Assembly (NCBI GenBank): GCA_903907075.1
Contig: CAIVMQ010000019.1
Location: 1-64,000, forward strand
Reading direction: 5' to 3'
DNA: 64,000 bases
DNA from: an uncultured Bacteroidia bacterium
Lineage (GTDB): Bacteria > Bacteroidota > Bacteroidia > Bacteroidales > Prolixibacteraceae
Shown: positions 29,065 through 40,339 of the stretch, piece by piece
Position numbering within the stretch: the stretch's first letter is position 1
How the letters are laid out: the number at the start of each line of letters is the position of its first letter
The notes under the pieces: model-generated
The model's database searches: none
What the model was told of the DNA's origin: nothing
The model's input: only the letters and a program-made list of their open reading frames with translations
Program-made: the position numbers and the translations under genes

Positions 29065-30432
29065 TTAAACGTTACTTTTCTTAGCTGTTTTAACTGAATC
29101 TGCTGGTGCCGCATTAACCGGCTCATCACTTATTTGCTTCAATTCATTGTGTTTGCGAACTTGATCCCTATAGATTTCCCAACCTACAGTTTCAATCTCT
29201 TCGGGTTTTTCAGGCTCATTTAAAAGTAGTATTCCGTCTTTCTCAACACCTTTATTGACAATCACATAATTCTCATTCTCATCTCCTAGGTCAATGATTT
29301 GCCTAACCACCTTATTTTTTTTGATATAGACATATTTTGTTGAATCTGTTTCAAATACAGCTTCTAAGGGGATATATAACTTATCATTGTAGGCTCCGGT
29401 CTGAATCAAATTACCTGTGGTCATGGCTGGTTTTAACTCACGGTCACTGCCGAAGACTCTAATGTTAACTTCAAAGACCTTTGAGTCACTTTTAGGCATT
29501 GGCTGTCCAATATTGGCTACAGATATTACTTCACCTTTTAATTCTTTTGCCGGAAATGCATCGATACTTAAAGCTACAGGCTGACCCACTTTTATTTTTG
29601 CAATATCAATTTCGTTAATGTAGGTCTCCGATATCAATTTTGTCATGTCAGGCAAAGTGGCTATAATGGGATTCCAAGGGGTTAATACCGATCCAATTTG
29701 TATTTTTATTCCAAATCGATCTTTGGCATATAAGACCATTCCGGGTTTAGGAGCCTTAATAATTAAGGCATCATAAAGTTTAAGCAGATTGTCAACCCGT
29801 TGTTGCTTGAGATTAAAATCAATATTTCGTCGTTCCATTTGAGAACGCAATTGTCGTTGCCTCATTTCGAGCCCTTTAATATCTTGTTCCAGCTTCCGCT
29901 CAACCTTGCCAAGATCCATTTGTGCTTTTTTTATGACCGATGGAGACTCGTAAACCGATTCTGCCAGAACGATTTTCTGCTCTTCAACATCCGATTTTGA
30001 GTTAACAATGATATCGCGATAGTTGCTCAGACTTAAATTTGAATCAAGCTTTGCGTCTTCTATCGTTGAGGCTGCAGTCTCCAATTCTAACCTAGCAGCT
30101 GTCAGTACCTCTTCAATAACTTTATGGTCTAGCGTGGCAATATATTGCCCAGAGTCAACAACACTACCTTCCTCAATTAGATCGGTAATTTTAATCTCGT
30201 AAATCCGTACATTCTGACTCGAGAGCACTGCAGGAAGAATAATATTCTCTGAATTTTCTGACTTTAGTTGACCTGAGGTGTGAATCTTAACTTCTACCTG
30301 CCCTTTCATCACCTTACAGGTTATCTCTTCGACATTCGATTTTTTGCTGCGGTAAAATATAATCGATACAATCAGTAGCAATATTGCAATTATACTTAGT
30401 ACTTTTTTTATCTTCATAATCTTTGGTTTCAA
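29065..30432 (-). CDS. HlyD/MacA-type periplasmic adaptor (first adaptor)
   Basis: A 455-residue adaptor, related to but distinct from the one at 24839-26083. The membrane helix is at residues ~9-26 (VLSIIAILLLIVSIIFYR), followed by EGSVVDSGQYIATLD, a long coiled coil (to about DNLLKLYDALIIKAP), barrel strands, and a charged C-terminal tail of about 40 residues that the second adaptor lacks. The two share the plan throughout (EIKITDLIEEGS, ESVYESP), which indicates duplication. It is the first gene of the export cluster, separated from the permease by 120 bases. Confidence 0.88.
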   Translation of the reverse strand: MKPKIMKIKKVLSIIAILLLIVSIIFYRSKKSNVEEITCKVMKGQVEVKIHTSGQLKSENSENIILPAVLSSQNVRIYEIKITDLIEEGSVVDSGQYIATLDHKVIEEVLTAARLELETAASTIEDAKLDSNLSLSNYRDIIVNSKSDVEEQKIVLAESVYESPSVIKKAQMDLGKVERKLEQDIKGLEMRQRQLRSQMERRNIDFNLKQQRVDNLLKLYDALIIKAPKPGMVLYAKDRFGIKIQIGSVLTPWNPIIATLPDMTKLISETYINEIDIAKIKVGQPVALSIDAFPAKELKGEVISVANIGQPMPKSDSKVFEVNIRVFGSDRELKPAMTTGNLIQTGAYNDKLYIPLEAVFETDSTKYVYIKKNKVVRQIIDLGDENENYVIVNKGVEKDGILLLNEPEKPEEIETVGWEIYRDQVRKHNELKQISDEPVNAAPADSVKTAKKSNV

Positions 30433-30588
30433 ACCTGAAATTTGAGTAGCTGCTAATATTATTGCCCTTAAATAGATACTAAAATAACTGCGGCAATTTT
30501 CTTTTCTGTGCTTTGATTCTCGGAGATAAAGATACGAATAGAAATGATTATTCCTTTACTTGTACGTTAACGGTTATTGACTTTTTGA

Positions 30589-31344
30589 TCAAAACCGATG
30601 AATAAAATTTTCCTTCTGTAATCCTGCTTTTAGTAGTACTAATCCTGTTTCAAAATGGTCCAATGTGATTTGTACATTCTTATCTTCAGTAATCCCTCTC
30701 CATATTTTTTCCATGGCTTGAGAATGATGTATCCCTCTTACAATTATTACCTTTGGTGGGTGACTGCATTGAACGTGTTTCTTTAAACTGTTTTCTGTCC
30801 TTTGCGGATTCCAAGGGTCATTAATTAAAACGAATTCGGGATTTTCCGTTACAGCCGAGTAATCAGAAAGGTACTCGATATTGGCAATGTTGCTTTGCTC
30901 AAGAAGATTTTCTGTAACTATTTTTAATTCAATAGATTCTATTATTTGCCATACCTGGATAGAGGGGATCGCTAGCCCCATTGCTCCCAGATGAACTCCA
31001 AGAGAAGGACCATAACTGAGTACAGTTTTAGGTTTGAATTCACGAATTAAACGAAATAGTAAGTTGCAATACTTTTCAGGGAGTTCTAATTGACGGTAGA
31101 GTTTTCTGTATTTTTGTTTCTCAATATTCGCATTAGAAAAGATGGAAAGGGTCGTAGGATCTTTCAATTCGTGCAACGATTCGCTTGATTTCTGTCTGAG
31201 TATTTTTAAAATCGTATATTCCGGATATTTTTTCTTATCCTCTATAACTGTTGTGATTAATCGAAATAAGAATGGGGAATGAATTTGATGTCCGCCACGA
31301 TGGCGTGCAGCTTTTAAATAACGTAAACGGCTTAAAGTAAGCAT
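30589..31344 (-). CDS. Methyltransferase-like protein (possibly degenerate Rossmann fold)
   Basis: A 251-residue soluble protein of a type common in Bacteroidota. The N-terminus has RHRGGHQIHSPFLFRLI, a conserved hallmark. A Rossmann-like core follows: KTVLSYGPSLGVHLGAMGLA resembles SAM motif I, and FVLINDPWNP stands where motif IV would be. The glycine pattern is loose, so SAM binding is plausible rather than shown. It is transcribed away from recG with 97 bases between the starts. I know of no experimental function for this family. Confidence 0.6.
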   Translation of the reverse strand: MLTLSRLRYLKAARHRGGHQIHSPFLFRLITTVIEDKKKYPEYTILKILRQKSSESLHELKDPTTLSIFSNANIEKQKYRKLYRQLELPEKYCNLLFRLIREFKPKTVLSYGPSLGVHLGAMGLAIPSIQVWQIIESIELKIVTENLLEQSNIANIEYLSDYSAVTENPEFVLINDPWNPQRTENSLKKHVQCSHPPKVIIVRGIHHSQAMEKIWRGITEDKNVQITLDHFETGLVLLKAGLQKENFIHRF

Positions 31345-31406
31345 TGTGCTATTTGATGGATTAAGGTGGTAAAACTAAGAAAGAATTGGTAAAGATTTAG
31401 TAGCAG

Positions 31407-31437
31407 TTTGTAAAACTGTAATTTTCGTGTAAGTTTG
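31407..31437 (+). promoter_or_regulatory. Promoter abutting the recG start codon
   Basis: TTTG at 31407-31410, 19 bases, then TAAGTTTG at 31430-31437. This is a full match to the Bacteroidota promoter. The last base lies only four bases before the recG ATG at 31442, so transcription would begin at or next to the start codon. Confidence 0.6.
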
Positions 31438-31441
31438 TTTT

Positions 31442-33547
31442 ATGGCGGGAATATTAGCACAGGATATTAAATTTCTTCCGGGAATGGGCCCGCGAAAGGC
31501 GCTTGTTCTAAATCAGGAACTGAAAGTTTTTACACTTGGTGATCTGATCTATTATTTCCCCTATAAATATGTAGACCGAACAAAGTTCTACACAATTAAA
31601 GAAATTACCACTCTGCTTCCCTATATTCAGGTAAAAGGGAAACTTATGGGTATGGAGGTTATTGGTATTGGTCGCAACCAGCGATTGGTTGGTTATCTCA
31701 ATGATGGTACCGGAGTTCTTGAGTTAATATGGTTCCAAGGGATTAAATTTATTACCCAGACTGTTAAGACTGGCGTCGAATATATTGCTTTTGGGAAGCC
31801 AACAGAATTTAACGGTCAGTTTAGCATTGTTCATCCTGAGCTAGATGAGTATGTTCCTGATTCAACAAAGAAAGAAGGATATATTCAGGCATTTTACAAT
31901 ACTTCAGAGAAGCTTAAAAGCAATTTTATACACTCAAAGAATATTTTAAAGTTTCAATATGCGGCACTTCAGCTAGCGCGTGGAACAATTTTTGAATCAA
32001 TGCCTGGATGGCTGGTTCAGAAACTTGGTATGCTTGGGCTTGAATCGGCATTAATTAATATTCATTTCCCCCAAAATCCTCAGGTCTTACGAGATGCTGA
32101 ATATCGACTTAAATTTGAGGAGCTGTTCTATATTCAGCTTAAATTACTTCATCTAAAAGCTGACCGCTATAAGAAGTTCAAGGGACATGTATTCACTAAG
32201 GTTGGGAATTATTTTAACGATTTTTTTTATAGTCATCTGCCTTTTGAGCTTACTAATGCACAAAAACGGGTAATCCGAGAGATTCGAAAAGATATGGGCT
32301 CAGGTCGACAGATGAACCGACTTTTGCAAGGTGATGTGGGAAGTGGAAAAACAATGGTTGCCTTAATGTCTGCTCTTATTGCAATGGATAACGGATTTCA
32401 ATGCTGTCTTATGGCCCCTACTGAAATACTTGCTAATCAACATTTTATTTCTATTCAGAAATTTCTTGGAGACATGTCGGTAAAGGTAAAACTACTTACG
32501 GGATCAACTAAGAAAGGGGAGAGGGCAATTATTCATTCTGATTTGCTTAGTGGTAATTTAAATCTGATTATTGGAACTCATGCTTTGTTAGAGGATATTG
32601 TTCAATTTGAATCGCTGGGCCTTGTAATTATTGATGAACAGCATCGATTTGGTGTAACACAACGGGCAAAACTTTGGCGTAAAAACTTTGTCCCACCTCA
32701 TGTGCTGGTTATGACTGCAACTCCGATTCCCCGAACATTGGCTATGACTGTTTACGGGGATCTTGATGTTTCAGTTATTGATGAGCTACCGCCCGGACGG
32801 AAACCAATTAGAACAGTCCATTATTTTGAGAATAAAAGGGCTCAGACTTACGATTTTATCCGAAATGAAATTGCTGAAGGTCGCCAGATTTATATCGTTT
32901 ATCCATTAATCTCAGAATCTGAAAAGTTGGATTATAAAAATCTTGAAGAGGGCTATGAACAGATTATCAAAGCATTTCCTATGCCCGATTACGCCATTGG
33001 AATGGTGCATGGACGGATGAAACCGGCGGCTAAAGATTTGGAAATGCAACGATTTAAGAATCGTGAAACTCAAATCCTTGTCGCGACAACAGTAATTGAA
33101 GTTGGTGTTGACGTACCTAATGCTTCTGTGATGATTATTGAGAGTTCGGAACGTTTTGGATTATCCCAACTTCATCAGTTACGAGGACGTGTGGGACGGG
33201 GTGCTGAACAATCTTTCTGTATCTTATTAAGTGGATTTAAACTTGGCGCTGAGAGTCGCAAGCGGATAGAAACAATGGTGGCTACAAATGATGGCTTCGA
33301 AATCGCAGAGGTTGATATGCGTCTTCGAGGACCCGGCGATATCGAAGGGACTCAACAAAGTGGAATAGCTTTCGATTTAAAAATAAGTAATCTCGCCAAA
33401 GATGGACAGATTCTTCAGTATGCCCGTGATATTGCAGATTCAATAATTTCACAAGACCCACTATTAGAACAACCATTAAATGATATTCTTAAGAAACAAT
33501 TAATTGCCTTAAAGAAAAATCATTTGAATTGGGGGTCAATAAGTTAG
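31442..33547 (+). CDS. recG: ATP-dependent DNA helicase RecG
   Basis: Branch-migration helicase that remodels stalled forks and Holliday-type junctions. The 701-residue protein starts with the wedge region (IKFLPGMGPRKALVLNQEL), then the OB-like wedge (IQVKGKLMGMEVIG), Walker A LLQGDVGSGKT with K303, APTEILANQH, DEQH in IIDEQHRFGVTQR, MTATPIPRTLA, and in the second fold VATTVIEVGVDVPNAS and QLRGRVGRG. The C-terminal TRG/wedge features are present. It is monocistronic with its own promoter and possibly leaderless. Confidence 0.96.
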   Translation: MAGILAQDIKFLPGMGPRKALVLNQELKVFTLGDLIYYFPYKYVDRTKFYTIKEITTLLPYIQVKGKLMGMEVIGIGRNQRLVGYLNDGTGVLELIWFQGIKFITQTVKTGVEYIAFGKPTEFNGQFSIVHPELDEYVPDSTKKEGYIQAFYNTSEKLKSNFIHSKNILKFQYAALQLARGTIFESMPGWLVQKLGMLGLESALINIHFPQNPQVLRDAEYRLKFEELFYIQLKLLHLKADRYKKFKGHVFTKVGNYFNDFFYSHLPFELTNAQKRVIREIRKDMGSGRQMNRLLQGDVGSGKTMVALMSALIAMDNGFQCCLMAPTEILANQHFISIQKFLGDMSVKVKLLTGSTKKGERAIIHSDLLSGNLNLIIGTHALLEDIVQFESLGLVIIDEQHRFGVTQRAKLWRKNFVPPHVLVMTATPIPRTLAMTVYGDLDVSVIDELPPGRKPIRTVHYFENKRAQTYDFIRNEIAEGRQIYIVYPLISESEKLDYKNLEEGYEQIIKAFPMPDYAIGMVHGRMKPAAKDLEMQRFKNRETQILVATTVIEVGVDVPNASVMIIESSERFGLSQLHQLRGRVGRGAEQSFCILLSGFKLGAESRKRIETMVATNDGFEIAEVDMRLRGPGDIEGTQQSGIAFDLKISNLAKDGQILQYARDIADSIISQDPLLEQPLNDILKKQLIALKKNHLNWGSIS

Positions 33548-33563
33548 TACGTTTCCAGGGAAC

Positions 33564-33581
33564 CGACTAATGGCTTTTAGT
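33564..33581 (+). terminator. Weak hairpin after recG
   Basis: GACTAA pairs with TTAGTC around a six-base loop 16 bases after the recG stop, with ATCAATTTTG following. The stem is only six base pairs, so termination is uncertain. Confidence 0.3.
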
Positions 33582-33656
33582 CATCAATTTTGTCTATTTA
33601 ACAATTAATTGATATTTTATAAGCTCAGATCATTTTTTTCTAAGAACAAAAATCCT

Positions 33657-33664
33657 ACTTTTGC
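33657..33664 (+). promoter_or_regulatory. Candidate -7 box for the MgtE-N/NRAMP operon
   Basis: TACTTTTG is an exact TAnnTTTG, with a T run about 19 bases upstream at the -33 position. A transcript starting near 33670 would have a leader of about 124 bases before the ATG at 33794. Confidence 0.5.
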
Positions 33665-33669
33665 GCAAC

Positions 33670-33793
33670 AAATCAATCTAATTTTACGAATGGACGAAGG
33701 GCCTGCGGAAATATTTTTTATTAACCTGATATAGCGGGATCGCCACATTTCTGTTTGCGCTCCTTGCAATATCCTAACAGCAAGGAGGTGCTC
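33670..33793 (+). promoter_or_regulatory. Structured leader with a sequestered Shine-Dalgarno (riboswitch candidate)
   Basis: GCGCTCCTTGC (33757-33767) pairs with GCAAGGAG-G-TGC (33780-33791) to form an 11-bp stem with one bulged G and one G-U pair around a 12-base loop. The right arm contains AAGGAGG, a strong Shine-Dalgarno at ideal distance from ATG 33794, so the stem would block ribosome entry. Strong Shine-Dalgarno sites are uncommon in this phylum. The 85 bases upstream contain CGAAGGGCCTGCGG and GCGGGATCGC, which could form an aptamer. By eye I cannot match it to the M-box, yybP-ykoY or NiCo consensus. A metal-responsive switch is inferred from the downstream genes. Confidence 0.5.
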
Positions 33794-35062
33794 ATGACAT
33801 CAATTACCACATTCTATTTAAGTCGGGTTATTGGGAGGAAGGTTTTTAATCCCAATGGTCAGAGCCTTGGCACCATAAAGGATCTCTTAGTTGATCCGGA
33901 CTCTTCCAATTATCCTACCGGGCATCCGGTTGTAAAAGGGATTAAGCTCAAAGTAAATAAAGATATTGTCTATTATTCCTTTGACAATTTTCATATCGAA
34001 AAGGTTAATGGCGTAGTGAAATGTATTTGTGACGATTTAATAGAACTCTCAAAAGAGGAATCTGAAAATAGCCTTTTTCTTGTCGAAGCCGTTCTTGATA
34101 ACCAAATAGTGGATCTAAACGGTAGAAAACTCGTTCGGGTAAATGATGTGCGTTTAGTTACCATAAGTAGTGGCACATTTGCTGTGGCTGTCGATATTGG
34201 GATAGAGGGCTTGTTGCGCAGAATTGGAATTGCACGTCCTTTGAAATATGTCATTGGGCTTTTCGGAGGGACGATCCCATCCAAGTTTATACTTTGGGAA
34301 GATGTTGAAACTATAGATTTCTCAAATTTAAATATTAAGCTTTCAAAAAGTTATGCAAAGCTTCAAACGCTACATCCCTCTGATTTAGCAGATATTATTG
34401 AAGATCTAGGTCGAAAGGCTAGTGCAGAGGTGTTTTCTGCTCTCGATGAAGAGAAGGCAGCTGATGTAATGGAAGAACTGGATACCGAAACCCAGTTGCA
34501 TATCCTTGAAAGCCTCTCTATTGAAAAAGCTGCTGACGTTCTTGATAAGATGCCAGCCGATGAGGTTGCCGACATCCTCGATGCATTGGAGGATGATAAG
34601 GCCGAATTGCTACTCAATGAAATGGAGAAAGATACCTCTCAGGAGGTTCGTGAATTGCTCGTTTATCCTGATCATACCGTAGGAAGTATCATGTCATCAG
34701 AGGTGCTATCCTTTAATCAGAATACCACTGTCGAAGAGGTACTCGCTGAACTTAGAGATAAGAAACCTGAATTCGAAACTTTTTATAACTTTTTCGTTAT
34801 CGATGAGAATGAAATCCTTCTGGCTACATTCTCAATCCGTGACGTTGTTATCTCTCCACCTGAATTGCAGATTCGGCAGATCATGAAGCCTTCACCCGTT
34901 CATCTAAGAGATTATCAGAAGATTAATGAGATTGCAGAGATCGTATCGAAGTATAACTTGTTGGCTATACCTGTAGTTGACAAAAAGAATGTACTTAAAG
35001 GGATGGTTGTTATTGACGATATCATTGAGGATTTAATCAGAAAACGTCGGACAAATAAATAG
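33794..35062 (+). CDS. PRC-barrel/MgtE-N/CBS protein without membrane domain
   Basis: A soluble protein of 422 residues. Order: two PRC-barrel units (about residues 5-75, RVIGRKVFNPNGQSLGTIKD, and about 90-150, ILDNQIVDLNGRKLVRVNDV-like), then an MgtE N-terminal superhelix (from LHPSDLADIIEDLG at about 205, with repeated DLAD/EKAADV/DEVADIL units to ~300), then a CBS pair (YPDHTVGSIMSSEVLSFN to the end). In MgtE these two modules sense cytosolic Mg2+ and gate the channel, but the transmembrane domain is absent here. I chose the ATG at 33794 for its AAGGAGG site. Ten bases separate it from the NRAMP-like gene, so it probably regulates that transporter. Confidence 0.85.
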   Translation: MTSITTFYLSRVIGRKVFNPNGQSLGTIKDLLVDPDSSNYPTGHPVVKGIKLKVNKDIVYYSFDNFHIEKVNGVVKCICDDLIELSKEESENSLFLVEAVLDNQIVDLNGRKLVRVNDVRLVTISSGTFAVAVDIGIEGLLRRIGIARPLKYVIGLFGGTIPSKFILWEDVETIDFSNLNIKLSKSYAKLQTLHPSDLADIIEDLGRKASAEVFSALDEEKAADVMEELDTETQLHILESLSIEKAADVLDKMPADEVADILDALEDDKAELLLNEMEKDTSQEVRELLVYPDHTVGSIMSSEVLSFNQNTTVEEVLAELRDKKPEFETFYNFFVIDENEILLATFSIRDVVISPPELQIRQIMKPSPVHLRDYQKINEIAEIVSKYNLLAIPVVDKKNVLKGMVVIDDIIEDLIRKRRTNK

Positions 35063-35072
35063 GGTTAGTGCA

Positions 35073-36329
35073 ATGTTGAAGATTAAAAATAAAAAATCAT
35101 TTTTTCAAAAACTCGGTTTGTTCATGGCTATTTTGGGCCCGGGAATAATTACCGGAAGCGTGGATAATGATGCAGGGGGAATTACAACCTATTCTGTTGC
35201 CGCTGCCGTATATGGGTATAATCTAATCTGGACCCTTATCCCTTCATTTATTGTCCTAGTGGTAATTCAGGAGATGAATGCCCGAATGGGAATAGTAACA
35301 GGGAAAGGGCTTGCCGATTTGATCCGCGAAAATGCGGGGGTAAAAATTACCTTCTTTATCTTTATTGGATTGTTATTTGCCGATATTGGCAATACCACAA
35401 CCGAATTTGCCGGAGTGGCCGGAAGTATGGAAGTCTTTGGGGTTAGTAAATATATCTCCGTGCCTGTGGTCGGTTTTTTAGTCTGGTTCCTGGTTGTGAA
35501 GGGGACCTATAAAATTGCAGAGCGTATCTTCCTGCTTTTTAGTGTCTCTCTATTGATGTACGTGGTCTCGGCACTCATGGGCAAGCCACATTGGGGCGAA
35601 ATAGGAGAGGCCATTGTCCATCCACAGCTTGAGATTAACTCACAAAGCCTCGCTATGATTATAGGTATAATCGGGACTACAATAGCTCCATGGATGCAAT
35701 TTTATATGCAGTCCTCTGTAATCGAAAAGGGGCTTAAAATGAAACAGTTTAAATATTCGCTGATCGATATTGTCGTGGGCTGTATCGCCACCGTAGTGGT
35801 GGCATTTTTTATCATGGTGGCTTGTGCTTCAACATTACACGAGAATGGAATTCAGATCCATGAAGCTAAGGATGCCGCACTGGCACTAAAACCTCTCGCT
35901 GGAGCCTTTGCATCTCAACTCTTTGCTTTTGGACTCTTTATTGCCTCAATCTTTTCAGCAACTATATTGCCCTTGGCAACAGCTTTCTACGTTTGTGAAG
36001 CCTTCGGTTTTGAGGCCGGCATTGACAAAAAATGGGATGAAGCCAAAGAGTTTTATATCCTTTATACCGGTATTCTTATTATTGGCGCCGCTATTATCCT
36101 AATCCCTAATGCCCCATTGATCTCAATTTCGTTGTGGACCCAGGTTATTAACGGGATGTTGCTCCCTGTTGTTTTGGTTTGTATGATCCTGTTGGTTAAT
36201 AATAAAAAAATCATGGGCAAATATGTCAATAAGCTTGCCAATAATATCATTGGTTGGAGCGCTGTAATTGTGCTTGTTGTGCTATCATTATTTTTGCTTC
36301 TGATGCCACTATTTAGTCACGGAAATTAA
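35073..36329 (+). CDS. NRAMP-family transporter with altered metal-binding motifs
   Basis: A polytopic inner-membrane protein of 418 residues with about 11 helices and the NRAMP fold (GPGIITGSVDNDAGGITTY at the start; MNARMGIVTGKGLADLIRE; GTTIAPWMQFYMQSS). In manganese and iron NRAMPs helix 1 carries DPGN and helix 6 carries MPH. Here they read DAGG (residues 33-36) and APW (205-207): the Asp is kept, but the Asn, Met and His ligand positions are lost. Losing the soft Met ligand is a feature of NRAMP-related magnesium transporters, so Mg2+ or another hard ion is a better guess than Mn2+. It is cotranscribed with an MgtE-type sensor protein. Confidence 0.85.
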   Translation: MLKIKNKKSFFQKLGLFMAILGPGIITGSVDNDAGGITTYSVAAAVYGYNLIWTLIPSFIVLVVIQEMNARMGIVTGKGLADLIRENAGVKITFFIFIGLLFADIGNTTTEFAGVAGSMEVFGVSKYISVPVVGFLVWFLVVKGTYKIAERIFLLFSVSLLMYVVSALMGKPHWGEIGEAIVHPQLEINSQSLAMIIGIIGTTIAPWMQFYMQSSVIEKGLKMKQFKYSLIDIVVGCIATVVVAFFIMVACASTLHENGIQIHEAKDAALALKPLAGAFASQLFAFGLFIASIFSATILPLATAFYVCEAFGFEAGIDKKWDEAKEFYILYTGILIIGAAIILIPNAPLISISLWTQVINGMLLPVVLVCMILLVNNKKIMGKYVNKLANNIIGWSAVIVLVVLSLFLLLMPLFSHGN

Positions 36330-36437
36330 TGTAATGTCTTGATTTGCAAATTATAACTTGAAATAAAATCTTCTTTTTAAGAGTTAGTAATTGTATTTTT
36401 TAAATTGGGATAAAGAGATAAAAATCGGCATTAAGAT

Positions 36438-37100
36438 ATGAATGAAGTGTTTATAACTCAGAGTCTCAAGGATAAGCTACCCAATCTTACCTTGGGGTAC
36501 ATTGCATGCGATGTTGTTTTTGAGCTTCAAAATAGAGCTCTGTGGAAAGAGATCGAAGCAGTCTCTGTAGCGCTTGAAAATTCATCTCATCTCTCAGATA
36601 TTAGTTCTCACCCGGCAATTTACGCATCCCGACTAGCCTATCGGGCATGTGGGAAAGATCCATCAAGATACCGTCTCTCATCTGAAGCCCTGATGCGCCG
36701 CGTGGTAAAAGGGAATAGGCTGTTTCGAATTAATAATGTGGTCGATGTAGTTAATTTAATCTCTCTAAAGACAGGCATGTCTATTGGAGGTTATGATATG
36801 GAGAAAATATCCGGAAATATATATTTCGACATTGGAGGAAAAGATGAACCGTATGAGGCTATCGGGCGTGGGGATTTAAATGTAGACTATTTACCATTGT
36901 TTAGAGATTCTGTTTCCCCTTTCGGCTCACCTACAAGCGACTCGGTCCGTACTTCGGTAACTCTTAATACAAAACGGTTTCTAATGATAATAATTGGATT
37001 TTCGGGAAAGGAAAGTACCCAGGAGACGATTGATATTTCTCTTCCATTATTGGAAAAATATTGTCTTGCCAAAAATAGTGAGACTAGATTAATTCGATAG
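36438..37100 (+). CDS. Stand-alone B3/B4 tRNA-binding domain protein
   Basis: A 220-residue cytoplasmic protein corresponding to the B3/B4 domain of the phenylalanyl-tRNA synthetase beta chain (GKDPSRYRLSSEALMRRVVKG, then NNVVDVVNLISLKTGMSIGGYD, and later FGSPTSDSVRTSVT). In the synthetase this domain hydrolyses mischarged Tyr-tRNA(Phe). Free-standing homologues are widespread, but few have an assigned role; editing in trans or amino-acid binding is possible. It starts 108 bases after the NRAMP-like gene. Confidence 0.8.
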   Translation: MNEVFITQSLKDKLPNLTLGYIACDVVFELQNRALWKEIEAVSVALENSSHLSDISSHPAIYASRLAYRACGKDPSRYRLSSEALMRRVVKGNRLFRINNVVDVVNLISLKTGMSIGGYDMEKISGNIYFDIGGKDEPYEAIGRGDLNVDYLPLFRDSVSPFGSPTSDSVRTSVTLNTKRFLMIIIGFSGKESTQETIDISLPLLEKYCLAKNSETRLIR

Positions 37101-37155
37101 ATGACGCATTTAATAGAAGATTGAATTATTTTTGTTTGATTATAATACTAGAGTT

Positions 37156-37716
37156 ATGAAATATATTTCAAAATTTATTTTGTGGATTACGGGTTGGAAA
37201 GTTATTGGCAGTTTAGCACCCGTGCCTAAATGCGTGGTCTTAGGGGTTCCACACACCTCAATTTGGGATTTTATTATCTCCTGGTTTTTTTATAACTCTA
37301 TTGGCGGAAAATCGAGTATCGTAGTAAACAAGAAATTTTTCTTTTGGCCTGCCTGCTATGTACTAAACTATATGGGCGCCATTCCCTTGGATACATCCAA
37401 AGGTGCAAGTATGGTAAAACAAATTGTCGCGGAATTTAAGAAACGCGAAATTCTTCACCTCGCGATTGCTCCTGAGGGTACACGCAATCCAACTACAAAA
37501 TGGAAAGGTGGTTTTCATACCATTGCTAGGGCTGCAAATGTTCCACTTTACTGCGCCGTTTTCGATTGGGGACGCAAAGAGATCGGAATAGTTGATCAGA
37601 TTGAGTTAACTGACGACCTCAATGCTGATATGTACCGAATTAAGCAATGGTACAAAGATCGTGGAGTAAAAGGGAAATTCCCAGAGAAATTTCTCCTTGG
37701 TGAAGGATTGGACTAA
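37156..37716 (+). CDS. Lysophospholipid acyltransferase-like protein (PlsC family)
   Basis: A 186-residue acyltransferase. The catalytic HX4D motif is PHTSIWD, and the glycerol-phosphate-site motif is APEGTRN; GGFHTIARAANVPL follows. Proteins of this short form lack the N-terminal membrane helices of PlsC. They are annotated as 1-acylglycerol-3-phosphate acyltransferases, though the true acceptor is not known. I chose ATG 37156 rather than the TTG at 37132 because the extra eight residues look like leader sequence. It is nine bases from the nitrilase gene. Confidence 0.82.
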   Translation: MKYISKFILWITGWKVIGSLAPVPKCVVLGVPHTSIWDFIISWFFYNSIGGKSSIVVNKKFFFWPACYVLNYMGAIPLDTSKGASMVKQIVAEFKKREILHLAIAPEGTRNPTTKWKGGFHTIARAANVPLYCAVFDWGRKEIGIVDQIELTDDLNADMYRIKQWYKDRGVKGKFPEKFLLGEGLD

Positions 37717-37725
37717 ATAGCTGTT

Positions 37726-38511
37726 ATGAAGCAAAAAGATCTTTTACGGATAACACTTGCTCAGGTAGATTTAATATGGGAGAATCCGGCTCTGAACCGC
37801 CTTAATCTTGAGATCCTGCTTACCCAGCTCTCCGGAAACTGTGATATCGTTGTTCTTCCTGAAACGTTTTCTACGGGGTTTACAATGCGTCATGAGCTAT
37901 ATGCAGAGCCAATGGATGGGCCTACTGTGCATTGGATGAGATTATTGGCTAAATCTACTCAGATAGCAATTTGCGGAACAATCTTGATTTCTGAAAATGA
38001 TCAGACGTATAATCGTTTCATATTTGTTACCCCTGATAATCAATTAACCAGCTACGATAAGAGACATCTCTTCACGATGGGAGGAGAGTCTACTGGATTA
38101 TCAGAAGGAAATAACCGAGTTGTTCTTAATTATTTGGGTTGGAGGATTGCTCTTTATACCTGTTATGATATTCGGTTTCCGGTATGGTGCAGGAATCAAA
38201 AAGATACTGATCTCATGATCTTTTCGGCCAATTGGCCCGAATCCCGTATAGTGGTATGGGATATCTTACTTAAAGCCAGAGCAATTGAAAATCAGGTTTA
38301 TGTGGCCGGTGTTAACCGAATAGGGACAGATGGCAATGGTATCAGATATAGTGGAAGCAGCCAACTGGTTAACGCACGTGGAGAATTACTAACACAGCTT
38401 CCTGGTTCATCTGAAAATTTGTTAACCTTCGAAATCTCCTTAAAGAGTTTGAAAGAATTCAGATTAAAATTTCCAGTCTCAAATGATTCAGACCATTTTG
38501 TATTGGGTTAG
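37726..38511 (+). CDS. Nitrilase-family amidohydrolase, YafV/omega-amidase-like
   Basis: A 261-residue member of the carbon-nitrogen hydrolase superfamily. The catalytic triad is in place: E46 in VVLPETFSTGF, K112 in YDKRHLF and C146 in LYTCYDIRFPVW. SANWPESR after the Cys and the overall length match YafV, an omega-amidase that hydrolyses 2-oxoglutaramate or succinamate and so takes part in metabolite repair. It directly follows the acyltransferase gene, probably in one transcript. Confidence 0.9.
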   Translation: MKQKDLLRITLAQVDLIWENPALNRLNLEILLTQLSGNCDIVVLPETFSTGFTMRHELYAEPMDGPTVHWMRLLAKSTQIAICGTILISENDQTYNRFIFVTPDNQLTSYDKRHLFTMGGESTGLSEGNNRVVLNYLGWRIALYTCYDIRFPVWCRNQKDTDLMIFSANWPESRIVVWDILLKARAIENQVYVAGVNRIGTDGNGIRYSGSSQLVNARGELLTQLPGSSENLLTFEISLKSLKEFRLKFPVSNDSDHFVLG

Positions 38512-38667
38512 TCTTCCAAATTGCCCTTTTTATTGATATCTCCTTTTTTTATGGTTTTCTTGTTTGTTCAGTTTATTTCAAATGCTGAATTCAAGTAATA
38601 AATGCAACTTTTAGATTAAATTATAGTTCATTGATAATCAGTGTAGGAGGTTTAATTGGAAATTGGC

Positions 38668-38675
38668 TAACTTTG
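38668..38675 (+). promoter_or_regulatory. Candidate -7 box for the ABC-F gene
   Basis: TAACTTTG is an exact TAnnTTTG 50 bases before the ABC-F start. No TTG is seen at -33 spacing. The rest of the 214-base gap (38512-38725) holds nothing else that I can support. Confidence 0.35.
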
Positions 38676-38722
38676 GCCCCTTGAATCGAATTAGTTTATA
38701 TATACGAATTATAAGAAGTTAA

Positions 38723-40339
<1,617 letters not shown>

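Follow-up and report, generated by a model that had tools for sequence, protein, structure and literature searches.

An acidic leader peptide and two competing RNA helices suggest a Mg2+-responsive, mgtQ-like attenuator at an NRMT operon of Bacteroidota

Most members of the NrmT (NRMT) group of NRAMP-fold transporters adjoin a gene resembling the N-terminal domain of MgtE (Shin et al., 2014, PMC4072509; statements on this and the other cited papers concern the parts of them that were consulted). We analyzed such an operon, a gene for a soluble MgtE-like sensor protein (gene 1) followed by an NRMT-type transporter gene (gene 2), together with its leader, in a 64,000-nucleotide (nt) stretch of an uncultured Prolixibacteraceae genome (contig CAIVMQ010000019.1, positions 1 to 64,000; the window). 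The operon has the same two genes as the cases described in PMC4072509, in the same order and with a transporter of the NRMT clade, and is itself an already described Mg2+-importer gene pair. However, the control described in the consulted parts of that paper is the M-box riboswitch, and a leader peptide is not mentioned there. The M-box (RF00380), a direct RNA aptamer, stands before this operon in some Bacillota (PMC4072509), and a Mycobacterium M-box has an upstream open reading frame (uORF) of its own, in an arrangement that differs from the leader studied here (PMC12810186).

Ribosome destabilization as a Mg2+ sensor was found, in the open-access literature searched, only for E. coli, Salmonella and their relatives. 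In Salmonella, mgtQ controls translation: alternative stem-loops make the ribosome-binding site (RBS) of mgtB accessible (PMC8092293). It has 8 codons with early acidic residues (D2 and E5, the identity of the Pro not being required), is located, in Salmonella and its relatives, between a pair of genes in the same operon, and releases the importer RBS when it is poorly translated. In E. coli, MgtL (EPDP) causes ribosome drop-off at low Mg2+, which turns mgtA on through Rho (PMC11282234, PMC11552253). Translation of mgtL and of corL, which precedes corA, is inverse to importer expression in E. coli and Salmonella, with Rho-dependent transcription termination as the output.

The leader of the window's operon resembles these systems in its early acidic and proline codons and resembles mgtQ in its predicted alternative stem-loops, but here the uORF is first in the transcript, reads M-D-x-x-P, occurs in Bacteroidota and Bacillota and has several transporter families downstream. 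In contrast to mgtL and corL, the output proposed here is masking of the Shine-Dalgarno (SD) sequence. We consider it about two-thirds probable (0.68) that this is a Mg2+-importing NRMT operon under a Mg2+-responsive translational attenuator, governed by a leader peptide and working like mgtQ. The leader is mgtQ-like by anatomy, and homology to mgtQ is not claimed. The features are as follows:

33656..33663 (+), candidate Bacteroidota -7 box, TACTTTTG (TAnnTTTG), read in the sequence
33690..33734 (+), leader-peptide uORF, MDEGPAEIFFINLI and stop, 14 codons, two early acidic residues and Pro5, from conservation
33727..33748 (+), 5' arm of the ON helix (anti-anti-SD), spanning the uORF stop codon, from duplex energy against shuffles
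33756..33768 (+), shared pyrimidine arm (anti-SD), whose partner is either the stop region or the SD, from duplex energies and from counts of pairs in 19 of the leaders
33780..33791 (+), 3' arm of the OFF hairpin with the SD AAGGAGG (33782-33788), from hairpin energy and SD match
33794..35062 (+), gene 1, PRC/MgtE_N/CBS-pair soluble Mg2+-sensor-like protein (422 aa), from Pfam, profile and fold match
35073..36329 (+), gene 2, NRMT-type NRAMP-fold transporter, predicted to carry Mg2+ (418 aa), motif D-A-G-G / T-T-I-A, from PF01566 and profile

The uORF lies between recG and gene 1. To compare it across loci we used 81 non-redundant leaders, which include the window's own and three from Bacillota. 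They were drawn from 101 loci (L004-L024 and L035-L114) after dropping 10 duplicates in the last 90 nt and 10 loci without a readable sensor start (L018, L038, L043, L046, L049, L078, L087, L093, L097 and L103). A uORF of the mgtQ/mgtL type, short and with acidic (and Pro) codons near its start, was present in 75/81 leaders, 93-143 nt before gene 1, and these encoded 70 distinct peptides. Conservation was at the level of residues: position 2 was acidic in 75/75, position 3 in 70/75, and Pro5 was kept in 71/75. The window's peptide begins MDEGP; the starts in the whole set include MDEGPA, MDDGPA, MDDDPAN, MDDYPAN, MDPYPA, MEEGSS, MDPDPS and MDTDPDG. Third-position entropies over codons 2-5 were 0.64, 1.71, 1.89 and 1.18 bits; the first and second positions gave 0 to 1.05.

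Between -80 and -150, a uORF of the strict form M[DE][DE].P was found in 66/81 leaders but before only 1/290 other ORFs of at least 150 aa, and that single background case was the second operon copy in L111. The looser M[DE][DEPT] form gave 75/81 leaders against 5/290 such ORFs in the same stretches. As controls, none of nine full-length MgtE genes of relatives had an ATG-started M[DE]..P uORF (5-40 residues, 260 nt upstream), although one (L025) had an MED frame without Pro5, and no acidic uORF was seen by eye in the region upstream of the genome's own corA (L034). The motif TAnnTTTG, which we take to be the Bacteroidota -7 box consensus, stood within 60 nt upstream of the uORF ATG in 60/74 leaders (a raw count with no background rate).

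Two helices compete for the pyrimidine arm. In the window, the ON duplex with this arm had an energy of -16.2 kcal/mol (z -3.0) and the OFF hairpin, which holds the SD, -16.0 kcal/mol (z -3.6). Over the 75 leaders, against dinucleotide shuffles, the stop-region helix had a mean z of -3.0 (z < -1.5 in 61/75) and the SD hairpin a mean z of -2.1 (z < -1.5 in 50/75); both passed z < -1.5 in 44/75. In an alignment of 19 leaders (A5), covariation was above shuffles for both helices (0.260 vs. 0.210, 1/500, and 0.220 vs. 0.162, 0/500) and also above all slid controls. The geometry was regular: among the 61 well-paired leaders the ON 5' arm began 30-46 nt from the uORF ATG (interquartile range 35-38) and contained the stop codon in 47. 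AAGGAGG was matched at 6 or 7 of its 7 positions in 70/75 leaders.

A ribosome covers about 15 nt ahead of its P site. Given this footprint and the arm geometry, the ON 5' arm would be free with a ribosome on codons 4-6 and covered at termination, which makes it likely that full reading of the uORF means OFF and early loss means ON. The sequences themselves show the residue-level conservation of the uORF, the competing helices with their spacing and the set of genes that follow such leaders; from these we infer that the uORF is translated, that Mg2+ is the signal and that the ribosome translating the uORF would be the sensor. At low Mg2+, this ribosome would be destabilized on the acidic, proline-containing start (MDEGP) and would drop off or stall within codons 3-6. 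After such early loss the uORF stop region would be free to pair with the pyrimidine arm, unmasking the SD, and sensor and transporter would be made. With sufficient Mg2+, the ribosome would reach the stop and occupy the ON-helix 5' arm, leaving the pyrimidine arm to close the SD hairpin. The sensor protein would probably add post-translational feedback on the transporter.

We then asked which other genes stand behind the same leader, using a sequence-only leader model (R1) run over 393 genomes of the order. It matched 39 sites, among them the window's, in 36 genomes. A common set of genes lay downstream: the sensor gene in 29, NRMT alone in 1, CorA in 5 (L146, L148, L180, L181 and L185) and OprB in 2 (L179 and L183); one match ended at a contig end, and one (L186), which had no uORF, was rejected. 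All seven CorA and OprB genes were confirmed by Pfam. The matches at sensor leaders were expected by construction, because R1 was trained on them; no CorA or OprB leader was in the training set. The usual spacing of about 100 nt was seen for two of the CorA genes and for both OprB genes, and the stop-region helix had z < -1.5 in 5/8 non-sensor leaders tested. An NRMT gene without a sensor gene stood directly behind the leader in L144 (MDDLPESILLINFEAEEIL) and in L078 (same start). Over 395 genomes of the phylum, R1 gave 9 weak matches outside the order, none with the uORF, which we took as chance; absence outside the order is not thereby established, because this search had stricter filters that lose weak matches. 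The OprB-family porins of L179 and L183 are candidate Mg2+-regulated outer-membrane pores.

In Bacillota, 398 genomes were searched, of which 89 matched the NRMT alignment (canonical NRAMPs included); the best 30 loci were read, and 26 of these had a leader of at least 150 nt. An MD.[GDN]P uORF was present in 15/26 leaders (shuffle mean 0.00) and an M[DE]..P uORF in 17/26 (shuffle mean 0.08). The 15 leaders are not all independent, since they include groups of close relatives (L152/L153/L155/L156 and L167/L170/L172/L174) and two operons, L115 and L116, that the set of 81 already contains as L110 and L099. Strong competing stems were found in some of the Bacillota leaders (L116, L167 and L175, z -4.1 to -7.3). 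An M-box was found in one of 20 Bacillota loci scanned with Rfam, a scan that covered about 200-240 nt of flank; this was L154 (4076-4236), whose leader had no MDxxP uORF. L154, with an M-box and without the uORF, suggests that one Mg2+ sensor may replace another at the same operon. No Rfam family matched the leader in these 20 loci or in the window region, where positions 30000-40000 gave no RF00380 or other relevant match up to E 1.

We hold it somewhat better than an even bet that these leaders form one cross-phylum leader-peptide family, M-D-x-[D/G/N]-P, in Bacteroidota and Bacillota. In such a family the ribosome would be the Mg2+ sensor and a stop-overlapping RNA switch the output, controlling NRMT/MgtE-N operons, CorA channels and OprB-type porins (candidate outer-membrane Mg2+ pores) and replacing the M-box at the same operon. 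The leader uORF and its RNA switch, unlike the gene pair, are apparently undescribed: no account of leaders of this kind, either at NRMT operons or in Bacteroidota, was found in the open-access literature searched, subscription papers being outside its coverage.

Several results weigh against the attenuator. Six of the 81 leaders (L067, L074, L100, L101, L107 and L114, three of them Ignavibacteria) lacked the uORF, that is, had none that begins M[DE][DEPT] with its ATG between -80 and -150. Many Bacillota uORFs have a single early acidic residue (MDSGP, MDGGP), and the stop-region helix was weak (z > -1.5) in 7/17 Bacillota leaders (L152, L153, L155, L156, L160, L163 and L178) and in 3/8 non-sensor leaders (L146, L185 and L179). 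In three of the five CorA loci the uORF lies about 255-270 nt from the gene start, and a further small frame intervenes. The structures scored in A5 come from one member (L080), and its 19 leaders were selected by eye for good alignment, which favors these structures; for the ON helix in A5, a slide of -1 gave more pairs (10 vs. 7) and equal double-change cells (15). RNAalifold returned no consensus structure on a 63-leader alignment, an alignment of close relatives (A6) showed no covariation above shuffles, and the window's 184-nt leader folded no better than shuffles. Mutually exclusive helices, one of them hiding the RBS, are predicted by computation only, from energies and from covariation in hand-picked leaders, with RNAalifold negative.

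An SD-masking output also sits poorly with the reported indifference of Bacteroidia ribosomes to SD sequences, to which there are few exceptions such as rpsU (PMC9976891). Among 48 window ORFs of at least 180 aa, gene 1 was the only one with a 7/7 AAGGAGG at SD spacing, and one other had 6/7. This AAGGAGG is conserved in relatives despite the reported indifference. Either hiding of the start region matters, or this mRNA is read by ribosomes with a free anti-SD.

Pfam placed in the gene 1 protein a PRC domain (PF05239, residues 5-37), MgtE_N (PF03448, 193-293) and two CBS stretches (PF00571, the best at 360-414), but no MgtE membrane domain (PF01769). Its profile matched the cytosolic domain of MgtE (2yvy, E 3.9e-48), and its model (pTM 0.42) matched MgtE chains by fold (Z 22.7-25.2) over residues about 171-422. 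The protein ends approximately where the MgtE plug helix (Mg2/Mg3) would begin, so that of a complete MgtE channel it has MgtE_N and the CBS pair but neither the membrane domain nor the plug helix. Gene 2, an NRAMP (PF01566, E 9e-96), starts at 35073, 10 bases past the gene 1 stop.

An original prediction, made from the sequence alone, had proposed this split of a Mg2+-sensing module, without transmembrane domain, next to an NRAMP-like gene ten bases on, and both the domains and the retained acidic residues of MgtE bear it out. It had named a conserved MgtE membrane domain elsewhere in the same locus as evidence to the contrary, and PF01769 was not found in the whole source genome (3.59 Mb, 92% complete), where Pfam matched one MgtE_N (gene 1 itself), one CorA and two NRAMP. 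Its start of the first gene at 33657 falls in the promoter region, the gene beginning at ATG 33794. Of its twin PRC barrels one is supported by Pfam; a second beta-rich stretch is seen in AlphaFold models, whose fold lists were filled by MgtE and CBS chains. It also knew of no experimental description of the pair, which PMC4072509 provides.

The survey of adjacency that it suggested showed that the pairing is not chance. A sensor match lay upstream on the same strand in 77/80 named NRMT loci, some loci being cut by contig ends or broken; those without were L049 (contig edge), L078 and L087. The gap between sensor and NRMT was -10 to 30 bases in 73/77 measured pairs, the window's included, and the sensor gene was present in all 30 best Bacillota NRMT loci. 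Close relatives were Prolixibacteraceae, Mariniphaga and other Bacteroidia. L111 carries the sensor-NRMT operon twice, inverted, as minus- and plus-strand copies, each with its own MDDDPA uORF. Downstream of the window's operon (36438-37716) lie genes for a B3/4-domain protein and an acyltransferase-family protein, with no link to metal transport seen.

This near-universal adjacency in the loci read argues for a second layer of control, compatible with the leader model, in which the MgtE_N/CBS protein binds NRMT and gates it according to cytosolic Mg2+; whether this is the main layer we judge an even question. We mapped the cytosolic Mg2+ sites of T. thermophilus MgtE (PMC5882242) by hand on the profile alignment and counted residues over 50 sequences. 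Acidic residues were kept at three sites (Mg4, Mg6 and Mg7): E59 corresponds to D224 (50/50), D91 to D256 (43/50), D95 to D260 (48/50) and D247 to D409 (50/50). The Mg5 pair was altered, D226 to N388 (N in 48/50) and D250 to E412 (E in 40/50, D in 9/50). Because the acids of Mg4, Mg6 and Mg7 are kept, Mg5 is altered and the plug helix is absent, feedback of the sensor on the transporter, as already proposed in PMC4072509, is plausible but unproven. Against gating as the main layer stand the missing plug helix and L078, which has NRMT without a sensor. In addition, C. acetobutylicum NrmT imports Mg2+ without a partner protein, and partner co-expression gave no gain in rescue for the A. capsulatum pair (PMC4072509). 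An AF2 model of an in-frame sensor-transporter read-through (L006; 30 read-through rows) had pTM 0.46 and was uninformative on the complex.

That gene 2 imports Mn2+ rather than Mg2+ is unlikely. A. capsulatum NrmT, for which this was proposed and which also has an MgtE-like partner, rescues Mn2+ uptake in full but that of Mg2+ only when Mg2+ is in the low millimolar range (PMC4072509), and EleNRMT carries both ions (PMC8806188). However, gene 2 has DAGG in TM1 and TTIA in TM6, invariant in 13 aligned sequences including the window's, which fits the NRMT ion-site rule DxxG (TM1) and TxxA/T (TM6; PMC8806188), and its leader is shared with CorA. Gene 2 is closest to EleNRMT (7qia, 5e-122, vs. 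4.4e-26 for the best canonical MntH) and is by motif and profile an NRMT-clade transporter, with Mg2+ transport predicted. The "ion-coupled" transport of the original prediction is doubtful, since EleNRMT is not H+ coupled (PMC8806188).

It is rather less probable that the uORF senses a signal other than Mg2+, such as prolyl-tRNA or EF-P state, polyamines or general translation stress, in the style of an amino-acid attenuator. The conserved Pro codon would suit such a signal, and mgtL depends on proline codons (PMC11552253), but each uORF mostly has a single one, and NRMT and CorA have Mg2+ transport in common, not proline or polyamine metabolism. Least probable of all is a ligand-binding RNA, an undescribed riboswitch for Mg2+ or another ligand with an incidental uORF: the very similar nucleotide sequences of close-relative leaders and the M-box control of some NRMT operons (PMC4072509; L154) speak for it, but variation in codons 2-5 is concentrated at third positions, Bacillota leaders with a different sequence encode the same motif by other codons, the distance from the stop-region arm to the ATG is kept, and Rfam has no match in the window region.

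If the attenuator reading is true, the same device, ribosome destabilization on an acidic start, would serve at unrelated importers in two further phyla with SD masking as its output, and would be a general bacterial solution. It would make a simple peptide motif available for testing and predicts Mg2+ control of OprB porins. It would also bring to notice a strongly conserved SD in Bacteroidia, whose ribosomes reportedly do not use SDs.

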